DNA of 64,000 nt from Alkalimarinus sediminis (GCF_026427595.1 NZ_CP101527.1:939001-1003000), one strand, 5' to 3'; counted from the first letter of the stretch, positions 54,679 to 61,760 are shown. Numbers and translations are program-made. The notes: a model not told the origin generated them from the sequence alone.

Positions 54679-55575
54679 CTATTTAAGAAGAAATATAGCA
54701 ACCAGTAATGTAACCGCAAACCCGGCTATAGCAAACCACCAGTAGCGGTGGTTTTTCTTGGCTGAACCAGGCTCTTCTATCCAGGGTTGTTTGCCGTTAG
54801 ATGCCAAAGGGTGCTTTTTGATAGCGGCCTTAGTCGGTGCTTTTCGCTCTTTCGCGGCTTTTGATTGTTGTTGGTTAGGTTGTTGGTTAGGTTGTCGGGT
54901 AGCTGCTGCTTTTTTGGCTGGTGTAGCGGTTCGAATAATGGTTTTGTTTGGGTCTTCTGCAGGGCCTATTACTTCAAATGTAATGACATCAAGTTTGATT
55001 TTATCCCCAGACTTAGCATAGCTCTCTGTTATTCGCTTGCCGTTTAAATAGGTGCCATTACTTGAGTCTAGGTCTCTCACTAACAGCTTACCGCCTTTGA
55101 CCTCTACTTCTGCATGGTGTCTCGACAGGTGCTCGACTGGGATACTGATATCGCAGTTGGAATCTCGTCCTAACGAGACCTTTTGGTTAACCGTAAATAC
55201 CTCGTTTTCCATCCAGCTCGCGGTTGATTTTAATTTCCATTCTGGCGACTTACCCGGCTTTAAACCAATAGCAGATTGATACTGGGTTGAGTGTGGGTCG
55301 ATTACATCAAGCTGAACATTGCCCAATTGGATGACATCGCCCGCTTTTAGCGTTGCTTCGCTTAGTAATTTTTCATCATTTATTGTGCATGAGCCTGCAG
55401 GGTCTTTGTTTACAAGTGTTGTTTGATTGTTTGCAGTTCTAATTTCTAGGTGAACATCAGAGATGTCGGCTTCATTGATCACTAAACTATTTTCAGGCGA
55501 GCGCCCAATGGTGAATAGCGGATCAACCAACCATATGGCTTCTTGCCGTCTATCTCTAAATTGAAGTTTAAGCAT
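54679..55575 (-). CDS. Tail-anchored protein with two FHA domains
   Basis: 298 aa. FHA domain 1 (about residues 15-85) has FTIGRSPENSLV and ISDVHLEIR. FHA domain 2 (about 120-195) has SLGRDSNCDISIP, LSRHHAEV and DLDSSNGTYLNGKRI, the complete phosphothreonine-binding signature. A basic, Gln/Pro/Lys-rich linker follows (about 205-270), then one membrane helix at the extreme C-terminus (WWFAIAGFAVTLLVAIFLL). The ATG at 55575 has aagg eight bases upstream. It is divergent from the PP2C-kinase pair and probably reads phosphorylation by that kinase. Confidence 0.88.
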   Translation of the reverse strand: MLKLQFRDRRQEAIWLVDPLFTIGRSPENSLVINEADISDVHLEIRTANNQTTLVNKDPAGSCTINDEKLLSEATLKAGDVIQLGNVQLDVIDPHSTQYQSAIGLKPGKSPEWKLKSTASWMENEVFTVNQKVSLGRDSNCDISIPVEHLSRHHAEVEVKGGKLLVRDLDSSNGTYLNGKRITESYAKSGDKIKLDVITFEVIGPAEDPNKTIIRTATPAKKAAATRQPNQQPNQQQSKAAKERKAPTKAAIKKHPLASNGKQPWIEEPGSAKKNHRYWWFAIAGFAVTLLVAIFLLK

Positions 55576-55658
55576 GTTAAAAACCTTGAAGTTCAAAACG
55601 ATGAAATTGAGCGTATTGCTAATGAGTATAGCGTGTAACCGCTAATTGTGAGCCGTTA

Positions 55659-55690
55659 TTAGGTTTCATTTGTAAATAAATGAAACCTAA
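55659..55690. promoter_or_regulatory. 13-bp perfect inverted repeat in the FHA/PP2C divergent region
   Basis: ttaggtttcattt and aaatgaaacctaa are perfectly complementary around gtaaat. It lies 84 bases before the FHA start and 108 bases before the PP2C start, so it may be an operator serving both promoters. Confidence 0.55.
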
Positions 55691-55696
55691 CGATAT

Positions 55697-55727
55697 TTGA
55701 TGTTAAGCGTTTTTTTTAACCTATACT
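55697..55727 (+). promoter_or_regulatory. Possible sigma-70 promoter for the PP2C-kinase operon
   Basis: ttgatg and tatact are spaced 19 bases apart, which is longer than optimal. It lies just downstream of the inverted repeat. Confidence 0.3.
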
Positions 55728-55798
55728 GAAGTAAGGGCGACTTATTCTCGCTGGAGCCTTGCTGATGAGATTTAACTTTAATATGCAATTCGGTACTG

Positions 55799-56668
55799 AT
55801 GACTATGTTTAAATCGGCGGCTAAGTCGCATATAGGGCATGTGAGGTCCTGCAACGAAGATAGTTTTATAGAAAACCCAAAGATAGGGCTTTGGCTCGTA
55901 GCCGATGGTGTTGGGGGGAATACTCACGGAGACTTTGCCAGCCAGTTGGTTTCGCAAACAATAGAGAGAAAGATTCGTCTAGGCAGCACCTTAAAAGAAG
56001 CAGTAGAAGAAGCGCACTTAATCGTTATTAAGTTGGGGCGAGACAAACCTGAAGTTTCAGGAATGGCATCGACGGTTGTTGCGGCACATTTTAAAGGAAC
56101 TCAGTTTGAAATTTGTTGGGTCGGTGATAGTCGGGCTTATCTAGTGAGCCAAAACGATGAAATGACTCAGTTGACCGTCGATCATAATCACGCTCAGGTT
56201 TTAGTAGACTCGGGTGAAATAAGTCTAGAAGAAGCCCAGCAACACCCCTCTCAGCGAGTACTAATGCATGCAGTGGGAATAAGTGATAAAGAGTGGAAAG
56301 TAGATCAGTGTGAAGGCGAACTTCGACCTGGAGAAAGATTGCTGCTCTGCAGCGACGGGCTGACCGGTGAGTTGAAGGATGGCGATATTCTGGCATTGTT
56401 GGGTGAGGATAAACCGTTAACAGTAATAGTCGATGAGTTGATAGAAGGCGCACTAGATAGTGGCGGCAGCGATAATATTACATTAACGTTGATTGAACTT
56501 GACCGTCACGGGGTTAAGGCAAGCCAACAACATAAACTGAATCAGCTAGAAGAGGCAGATGAACAGCTGCCTCTCGCTCAGTCAGGGTCGAAAACAGCGA
56601 TCTCATATATAGCTTTGGGTGTTGTGGCTGCTCTTGTGGTGGTGGCGACTGCGGTGTGGGTGGCATAA
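55799..56668 (+). CDS. Tail-anchored PP2C-type protein phosphatase
   Basis: 289 aa. All core metal and phosphate motifs of the PPM family are present in order: RSCNEDSF, VADGVGGN, WVGDSRAYL, CSDGLTGEL and GSDNITLTLIEL. A short linker leads to one membrane helix at the extreme C-terminus (ISYIALGVVAALVVVATAVWV), so the catalytic domain faces the cytoplasm. It ends two bases before the kinase ATG and is its natural antagonist. Confidence 0.95.
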   Translation: MTMFKSAAKSHIGHVRSCNEDSFIENPKIGLWLVADGVGGNTHGDFASQLVSQTIERKIRLGSTLKEAVEEAHLIVIKLGRDKPEVSGMASTVVAAHFKGTQFEICWVGDSRAYLVSQNDEMTQLTVDHNHAQVLVDSGEISLEEAQQHPSQRVLMHAVGISDKEWKVDQCEGELRPGERLLLCSDGLTGELKDGDILALLGEDKPLTVIVDELIEGALDSGGSDNITLTLIELDRHGVKASQQHKLNQLEEADEQLPLAQSGSKTAISYIALGVVAALVVVATAVWVA

Positions 56669-56670
56669 AG

Positions 56671-58395
56671 ATGGCTGATGGACGTTATAAATACCTTGAG
56701 GTGATCGGCGAAGGCGGTATGGCGACGGTTTACCGGGGTGTGCAAAACTCGTTAAATCGCCAAGTGGCTATAAAAGTACTCTCTGCGGATTTATCTGACA
56801 ACCCGTCTATTATCAAACGTTTTAAGCGAGAGTCATTGATTATTGCAGGGCTTAATCACCCCAATATCATACATGTGATTGATAAAGGTACTACCAGCTC
56901 GGGCCGCCCTGTATTTGTAATGGAGTATGTCGAAGGGCAGACATTGAGTGATGTGATCTACCAGAACGCGCTGACCTTCAATCGAAAAATTGATCTCCTG
57001 ATTCAAGTTTGTAAAGGGCTAGCCTATGCCCACAAGTTAGGGGTTATTCATCGGGACATCAAACCTGCCAATATACTGGTGGACCATGAAGGGAATGCTC
57101 GTTTGCTAGACTTTGGTATTGCGTCATTTTTTAAGGATAAGCAAGCCAGCGACGAAAACGAAACCAAGCTCGTAATGGGGACCGAAGCCTATATGGCACC
57201 GGAGCAGCATCAGGGAATCTCAGAGACCTCAGAGTTAAGTGATATTTACTCTCTCGGTGTTGTTATTTATGAACTCCTCAGTGGGCAGCTACCAAGTACC
57301 CCAATAAAGCCATTAACAGCCCTTGTAACGGATGTGACTGAAGAACTGAATGCTTTGGTGATGCAATGCCTTTCGATGCACAGAGAAGACAGACCAGCCT
57401 CGGTAGAAGATGTAAAGAACATTATCTTACGGGTAATGCAGGGGCAGCACCTAGGGCAGGCACAGCAAGATCGTGCAGGGGAAGGGCTGGCAGCGATTAA
57501 AAAGCGGTTTGGTTTGTTGGATGTTATTCGTGATGACCGGCATGGTGCTGTGTATCTATACGAAGAGAAGTCATCTAATAACCTGTTAGTTATCAAAAAG
57601 AAGGTTGGTAAGTCATCCGGTCTCAAAGAGGCTAAAATACTGAGTCAGCTTAAACACCCAAACATCGCCAATATCCACGGTACATCGAATAAAGAGCATG
57701 TGTTTATTATTGTTATGGAGTATGTAGCGGGTGGCTCACTTCAAGATCGATTGATTGAACCGATGCCGATGGCGACGTTCTTACCTTTAGCTAACCAAAT
57801 ATGTGATGGCTTAACCTTTGCTCATAGAAATCGTGTGATTCATGGTAATTTAAGGCCTAGTAATATTTTACTAACCTCCGATTTACAACCAAGGCTGTCT
57901 GATTTTGGTTTGGATGAACACTATCGTATTGAGGCAGATAAAAAGAACTGGTATCGGCCTGAAGGAAAAGAAAGCAATGAATTGACCGATATATTTGCTT
58001 TAGGGGCTATTTTCTTTCATGCATTAACTGGCGCGCCTCCCGAGTTTAAAACGGGAGGATTGGTACGCACTGCAATATTTGAGGCATTGGATGGTGAGCT
58101 TCAGGCGCTGTTATTAAGAATGCTTGAGAAAGACCCACTGCAAAGACCTCAGAGCGTTGAAGCGGTGCAATCTGAGTTGTACTTGTTGGTTCAAGACCAA
58201 AAAACGGTAATTAAGCCTGCTAACAAGCGAAAAGGAGTAGGTAAGGGAAGCGACAACCACTCTCGAACACATGCTTGGCCACGGTTAACGGTGATTCTCG
58301 CTACTATAGCAGCCTTGTCAGTGAGCCTTAATGTTATTCTCTTAACCGGCTCGGATGAAATGGTTATAGCAATGATTGCTTCAATATTTAACTGA
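56671..58395 (+). CDS. Tail-anchored Ser/Thr kinase with a C-terminal pseudokinase domain
   Basis: 574 aa. Kinase domain 1 (about residues 8-265) has the Gly loop GEGGMATVY, Lys35 in VAIKVL, HRDIKPAN (127-134), DFG at 147-149 and APEQ, so it should be active. Kinase-like domain 2 (about 280-510) lacks a Gly loop, keeps Lys309 in VIKKK and DFG at 411-413, but reads HGNLRPSN at 391-398, so the catalytic Asp is Asn393. One membrane helix (about 540-560) sits near the C-terminus with a 14-residue tail. No PASTA or other extracellular sensor is present. Confidence 0.93.
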   Translation: MADGRYKYLEVIGEGGMATVYRGVQNSLNRQVAIKVLSADLSDNPSIIKRFKRESLIIAGLNHPNIIHVIDKGTTSSGRPVFVMEYVEGQTLSDVIYQNALTFNRKIDLLIQVCKGLAYAHKLGVIHRDIKPANILVDHEGNARLLDFGIASFFKDKQASDENETKLVMGTEAYMAPEQHQGISETSELSDIYSLGVVIYELLSGQLPSTPIKPLTALVTDVTEELNALVMQCLSMHREDRPASVEDVKNIILRVMQGQHLGQAQQDRAGEGLAAIKKRFGLLDVIRDDRHGAVYLYEEKSSNNLLVIKKKVGKSSGLKEAKILSQLKHPNIANIHGTSNKEHVFIIVMEYVAGGSLQDRLIEPMPMATFLPLANQICDGLTFAHRNRVIHGNLRPSNILLTSDLQPRLSDFGLDEHYRIEADKKNWYRPEGKESNELTDIFALGAIFFHALTGAPPEFKTGGLVRTAIFEALDGELQALLLRMLEKDPLQRPQSVEAVQSELYLLVQDQKTVIKPANKRKGVGKGSDNHSRTHAWPRLTVILATIAALSVSLNVILLTGSDEMVIAMIASIFN

Positions 58396-61346: not shown

Positions 61347-61760
61347 TTATTGGCCACGTTTATACTTCTTACGTCGACTTATGCCTATAAAGCCACGGTA
61401 GAGAGTATATCCGAACCCTAATAAAAATAACGCAGCGATGACCATGAGCGTAATATTTACAGAGATTTTGTCGGTCGTATTAAACTGAAAAGAGGTGAGT
61501 ACCTTAGATAGGTGCTGAATAAACAGGTAGACCGAAAGTATTCCCCCCATGATCGCTGAAATGAGCTGACTAGAGATAATAACCAGCGATGGAATCGTCG
61601 CTTGATGATTACATTGGTCGCATTCGAAAAGGTCTGTGTATTCTGGCTCACCTTCTTGGATGAGTGGCTGCATTCTGCCTTGTCGACATTTCGTGCAGAT
61701 AAAGGCCGAACTGGACCTTCTGTTGCTTTTGCGTACTAGCTGAGGTTCGCCGTGTTCCAT
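61347..61760 (-). CDS. Zinc-ribbon protein with two membrane helices
   Basis: 137 aa. CTKC and CDQC pairs (about residues 22-25 and 47-50) form a zinc ribbon. Two membrane helices follow (about 59-81 and 102-121), and the tail is strongly basic (SRRKKYKRG). The function is unknown. The gene is upstream of the ABC operon on the same strand, separated by the repeat block. Confidence 0.75.
   Translation of the reverse strand: MEHGEPQLVRKSNRRSSSAFICTKCRQGRMQPLIQEGEPEYTDLFECDQCNHQATIPSLVIISSQLISAIMGGILSVYLFIQHLSKVLTSFQFNTTDKISVNITLMVIAALFLLGFGYTLYRGFIGISRRKKYKRGQ

Follow-up and report, generated by a model that had tools for sequence, protein, structure and literature searches.

We analysed a signalling cassette of three genes in a stretch of 64,000 nucleotides (the window), which corresponds to positions 939001-1003000 of the 4.23 Mb single-contig genome of Alkalimarinus sediminis (G000); feature coordinates are counted from the first letter of the window. 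The cassette consists of a minus-strand gene for a double-FHA protein and a divergent plus-strand pair encoding a PP2C-type phosphatase and a Ser/Thr kinase. The double-FHA gene (54679-55575) specifies a tail-anchored reader of 298 aa, identified by two Pfam FHA matches, by whole-genome FHA matches and by an alignment of 19 sequences; an ATG at 55575 is a likelier start than a TTG upstream of it. On the plus strand, the phosphatase gene (55799-56668; 289 aa; PP2C_2, E=8.9e-15) is followed by that for a tandem kinase-pseudokinase of 574 aa with a C-terminal anchor (56671-58395). The start codon of the latter is better placed at the ATG at 56671, only 2 bases past the PP2C stop, which is consistent with translational coupling. 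No promoter enrichment was found in the divergent FHA/PP2C intergenic region (55576-55798), where scanned matches were rarer than in shuffled sequences. The closest named relative in our genome collection is an uncultured Oleiphilus metagenome-assembled genome (L009), at 61% identity.

Each of the three proteins had been described in the initial annotation as carrying its only clear membrane helix at or within about 15 residues of the C-terminus. Anchors were called by 19-residue Kyte-Doolittle hydropathy and, for the FHA protein and the kinase, from AlphaFold2 models as well; the topology rests on these two methods. Hydropathy gave a single hydrophobic segment both in the FHA protein (residues 279-297 of 298; 54685-54741, minus strand) and in the PP2C (271-289 of 289; 56609-56665, plus strand). 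The kinase has a segment at 539-557 of 574 (58285-58341, plus strand), overlapped by a weaker one at 555-573, and its helix lies 17 residues from the end, slightly further than had been stated. AlphaFold2 placed C-terminal helices at 279-297 of the FHA protein and 538-559 of the kinase. No domain was found beyond the anchor in any of the three. One C-terminal helix, a short tail and the protein bulk on the N-terminal side are what is expected of tail-anchored proteins, with insertion and orientation predicted. By hydropathy the anchor is kept in 19/19 FHA and 16/17 PP2C homologues, and the two other PP2C proteins of the same genome, judged by eye, have no C-terminal hydrophobic stretch. The recurrence in FHA and PP2C homologues, unlike these two other PP2Cs, argues that the anchors are there beyond chance. 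The kinase anchor is clear in its own genus and in several others (relatives designated g1, g4, g10, g6, g27 and g36). The sequence thus confirms all three genes and the anchor at the C-terminus of each product.

The kinase had previously been recorded as a plain kinase, and its tandem nature was overlooked. Pfam recognised two kinase stretches in the protein. Domain 1 (56686-57396, plus strand) has the full catalytic motif set (GEGGMATV, VAIK, HRDIKPAN, DFG and APE) and is by its sequence an active-type kinase domain. Domain 2 (57496-58194, plus strand) is the second Pfam Pkinase stretch, and an own-genome match was obtained at 57544-58176. This domain has lost its Gly-rich loop and reads HGNLRPSN where domain 1 has HRDIKPAN, so that an HGN triplet (57841-57849, plus strand), invariant in the alignment, takes the place of the catalytic HRD. 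The HGN, the β3 Lys, the αC Glu and the DFG are identical in 21/21 aligned copies, and HGN also occurs in five more distant copies. A pseudokinase is generally recognised by loss of the β3 Lys, the HRD Asp or the DFG Asp; here the HRD Asp is replaced by Asn in all 21. Domain 2 is apparently a conserved pseudokinase, predicted to be catalytically inactive.

When the domains were placed separately in a tree, every domain-1 sequence fell in one clade (support 97/97) and every domain-2 sequence in another (100/99). This indicates that the tandem predates the split of these lineages, i.e. it is an old fusion inherited as a unit. Domain 2 is under purifying selection: between loci L083 and L084, where synonymous sites are unsaturated, its ratio of nonsynonymous to synonymous substitution rates was 0.034, about as low as that of domain 1 (0.022). 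One copy of the tandem kinase, in genome G294 (L114, 7995-9736), is broken by a frame break within domain 1, owing either to decay or to an assembly error. Domain 2 was also compared with the families into which O'Boyle et al. 2025 place bacterial pseudokinases (ActPs1-3, GLW, CP1, DYD and DLHK; PMC12599244) by the published motifs, and within those motifs its combination of HGN, β3 KK and DFG fits none of the family signatures compared. Among these signatures, ActPs2 has the HRD D-to-N change together with β3 K-to-R and mostly a deletion of DFG; GLW carries GLW in the HRD position; in DLHK the HRD Asp is retained; in ActPs3 (MviN) no catalytic signature is left; and CP1 is variable, cytosolic and linked to COG3899.

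The FHA protein had likewise been taken simply as a double-FHA protein, which overlooked that its first domain is degenerate across homologues. In FHA1 (55321-55512, minus strand) the Arg and Ser of the phosphothreonine site are unconserved in the alignment, while in FHA2 (54991-55179, minus strand) the canonical phosphothreonine-binding residues G136, R137, S151, R152, H154, N173, G174 and T175 are invariant. A motif D-P-N-K-T212-I-I-R215 (54931-54954, minus strand) opens the linker that follows, and most of linker residues 210-273 have a predicted local distance difference test score (pLDDT) below 50 in AlphaFold2, as expected for disorder. The core T-x-[VI]-R, usually with K or R before the T, is found in 22/25 family members (sister cassettes, described below, counted), a few residues past FHA2, at the edge of an otherwise unconserved linker. 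By analogy with FHA proteins that are phosphorylated by their cognate kinase, such as Fha1 by PpkA (PMC3953482), Thr212 is probably a kinase site and FHA2 its reader, so that the motif may constitute a phospho-threonine switch. The sequence DQKTVIKP in the kinase linker was considered as a second phospho-motif; it is kept in several genera and lost in others, and was not used.

To see whether the gene order is conserved, related genomes were searched, one per species. The tandem kinase is encoded in 20/78 relatives, and 16 of these 20 loci keep the divergent order FHA<- ->PP2C->kinase. Of the remaining four, one is FHA<- ->kinase with the PP2C missing, in another kinase and FHA are convergent, and in two the kinase stands alone, with a tail-anchored double-FHA gene unlinked elsewhere in the genome. 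All 20 genomes with the tandem kinase also encode the FHA protein, against 5/58 others (Fisher p=2.7e-14, a value that ignores kinship). Beyond the taxonomic order, where few candidates were scored per genome and counts are therefore lower bounds, at least five of 369 genomes of the class, all distant gammaproteobacteria, have a tandem kinase with no adjacent FHA or PP2C of the cassette type, and the FHA search across the same 369 gave at least one weak match. Within the genus, genome G002 keeps an anchored PP2C at the syntenic place, with FHA and kinase both gone. In G001, of the same genus, a second PP2C and double-FHA pair was seen (L160, 4223-6354), both proteins C-terminally hydrophobic and with no kinase adjoining.

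Three FHA carriers without the tandem kinase (G049, G063 and G074) contain what we call sister cassettes (L155, L156 and L157). These have the same divergent gene order, a tail-anchored FHA protein and PP2C, and the T-x-[VI]-R linker motif. Unlike the present kinase, with its pseudokinase and bare anchor, theirs has one kinase domain, a transmembrane segment and a large, presumably periplasmic domain of the FGE type (sulfatase-modifying factor), with a PEGA domain in one of the three. The two types of kinase are not closely joined in the domain tree. The C-terminal half of the kinase is thus variable in this group, being either a presumed periplasmic domain or a pseudokinase with a bare anchor. 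The earlier statement that no protein has an extracytoplasmic domain holds for the present form of the cassette and does not extend to its sisters. This contrast is the best available evidence that the input may be cytoplasmic or in the membrane itself, and domain 2 is the best candidate for such an input or for a regulator.

Taken together, it is fairly probable that the kinase, phosphatase and FHA reader of the cassette together form a self-standing Ser/Thr phosphorylation switch tethered to the membrane. The self-contained signalling module suggested in the initial annotation agrees well with the conserved divergent order, the membrane tethering and the missing link to type VI secretion (see below). 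In such a switch the catalytic domains would face the cytoplasm. The pseudokinase, standing where the sister-cassette kinase has its periplasmic sensor, might allosterically regulate domain 1 in response to nucleotide binding or a partner protein. The kinase would phosphorylate Thr212 of the FHA protein in the K/R-T-x-V/I-R motif, and possibly itself too; FHA2 would bind the phosphothreonine in cis or in trans, so that a membrane complex is formed or released; and the PP2C would reset the switch. Confinement to the plane of the membrane would favour encounters of the three proteins with one another and with membrane-associated targets. More tentatively, we consider a bacterial arrangement resembling that of JAK, in which a nucleotide-binding HGN pseudokinase replaces the periplasmic sensor and gates the active kinase, so that the membrane-bound kinase, phosphatase and FHA protein answer a cytoplasmic signal (nucleotide state or a partner); this is possible, but we would not call it probable.

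Several observations weigh against the switch as described. First, the PP2C gene is not beside the kinase in 4 of the 20 loci, and the five distant tandem kinases show that the pseudokinase also occurs apart from the cassette. Secondly, one cassette carrier (L094) does not have the T-x-[VI]-R motif, and the PP2C of G013 is the unanchored one. Thirdly, the kinase anchor is mostly weak in g5, where a conserved tail of about 40 residues follows it, and G064, G075, G187 and G303 have none, which means that the family can do without a tethered kinase; the proposal that all three proteins are tail-anchored stands for this cassette and, for the kinase, cannot be generalised to its relatives. Finally, the activity of domain 1, the inactivity of domain 2, the phosphorylation of Thr212 and the binding by FHA are all predicted from sequence.

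An alternative is that kinase and phosphatase form an ordinary housekeeping pair of the PknB/Stp1 type, engaged in control of the envelope or of division, the pseudokinase being no more than a passive remnant or a scaffold. The top Foldseek matches were indeed PknB kinase domains (only kinase folds were returned, domain 1 dominating), and the best NCBIfam models were PknB_PASTA and Stp1. Both fell under their cut-offs, at 371.6 against 450 for the kinase (NF033483) and 198.7 against 230 for the PP2C, and no PASTA domain was found in the Pfam scan of the kinase. No division or murein genes adjoin the cassette, and members of the genus can lose both kinase and FHA. Retention of the HGN, the β3 Lys and the DFG in every aligned copy, under strong purifying selection, is moreover not expected of a leftover. 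We therefore regard the housekeeping pair as unlikely.

Sets of PpkA, PppA and Fha regulate the type VI secretion system (T6SS) in P. aeruginosa, Serratia and Agrobacterium (PMC3953482), and the present cassette might be a detached regulator acting in trans in the same way. It had been noted that no secretion structural gene lies in the window; the genome nevertheless has a single T6SS, split over two loci outside the window, at 684-702 kb and 2276-2289 kb (L104 and L101; Tss names assigned by eye), and the cassette is at 0.99 Mb. One locus has ClpV and TssA-C,E-G, and the other TagH, TssJ-M, a PP2C, a kinase and Hcp. An FHA protein, a PP2C and a kinase belonging to the T6SS are already encoded at 684-702 kb. 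A third set, at 2.49 Mb (L103, 8200-10912), comprises a PP2C without a tail anchor, an FHA protein and a kinase with several N-terminal hydrophobic segments. No T6SS core gene was found in the cassette flanks of the 20 relatives, where the sole match to a T6SS model was TagH on the FHA domain of a PP2C-FHA pair; the FHA protein itself scored 62.8 bits against the TagH model TIGR03354 (cut-off 120.25). VipB is present in 15/20 cassette carriers and 33/58 non-carriers (p=0.19, ignoring kinship), and the five carriers without it include G021 (98% complete), G031 (97%) and G009 (94%). Since own-genome loci, flanks and genome-wide VipB were all negative, linkage to the T6SS was rejected. A T6SS role for the cassette is unlikely, and regulation in trans of the kind just outlined is quite improbable.

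The neighbours of the cassette within the window are transporters and a channel. The synteny shared by g1, g4 and g10 consists of an ABC permease, a binding protein and a zinc-ribbon membrane protein. In the window the last is a zinc-ribbon-like protein of 137 aa (61347-61760) with two hydrophobic stretches, which had no match in Pfam or NCBIfam. Among conserved neighbours that might name a target, no partner is common to the relatives: only this synteny and a Wadjet-like operon in one genus were found. In that genus, g5, the FHA gene is followed in each genome examined (L083-L086, L089, L091 and L092) by co-directional genes resembling Wadjet JetABC/MksBEF (JetA, JetB and a JetC-type SMC, by eye). 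A role in phage or plasmid defence, where kinases do occur, is nonetheless very improbable, because the PADLOC kinase matches are generic kinase-domain ones, on both domains, the PP2C gave one weak match only, to a candidate model, the Wadjet-like link is confined to one genus, and no defence genes were recognised among the neighbours in the window.

To our knowledge, bacterial pseudokinases are mostly uncharacterised, and in the best-studied ones all catalytic motifs are degraded and the protein is apart from an active kinase. In the present cassette an active-type kinase is joined to an invariant pseudokinase that looks nucleotide-competent, and the phosphatase and reader are encoded alongside. 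An HGN pseudokinase behind an active-type kinase may define a variant of bacterial FHA/PP2C/kinase signalling, earlier accounts of which may exist outside the open-access literature. The sister cassettes, with an FGE-type domain where the present kinase has its pseudokinase, offer a small natural experiment on the way in which kinases gain a cytoplasmic input, and Thr212 is a concrete candidate phosphosite.

Compared with known systems, PpkA-PppA-Fha of the T6SS also combines an FHA protein, a PP2C and a Ser/Thr kinase, and in it Thr phosphorylation falls on the FHA protein or on a partner (PMC3953482). The present cassette differs in that it has no T6SS linkage, an added pseudokinase, no sizeable periplasmic part of the kinase, three tail-anchored proteins and an FHA protein under the TagH cut-off, which cautions that an FHA/PP2C/kinase trio is not automatically a T6SS regulator. 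In mycobacteria, MviN, FhaA and PknB bring a pseudokinase, an FHA reader and an active kinase into one membrane-associated complex; the MviN pseudokinase binds neither ATP nor Mg, is a protein separate from the kinase and belongs to ActPs3 (PMC3601408, PMC12599244). EssB/YukC of type VIIb secretion (T7SSb), too, is a bacterial pseudokinase anchored in the membrane, and FHA domains occur in its system, but its catalytic motifs are all degraded, it has no linked active kinase and it is dedicated to T7SSb (PMC12599244). A similar domain organisation is found in eukaryotes: the JAK family, and plant tandem kinase-pseudokinases with it, join a kinase and a pseudokinase, and in JAK the JH2 domain has the same change of the catalytic Asp to Asn, keeps the β3 Lys (PMC4718504) and regulates its neighbour. 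JH2 of JAK2, with this substitution, retains low activity (PMC4718504). JAK differs in its order (pseudokinase-kinase), its tyrosine specificity and its eukaryotic origin, and the likeness of domain 2 to JH2 is probably convergent.

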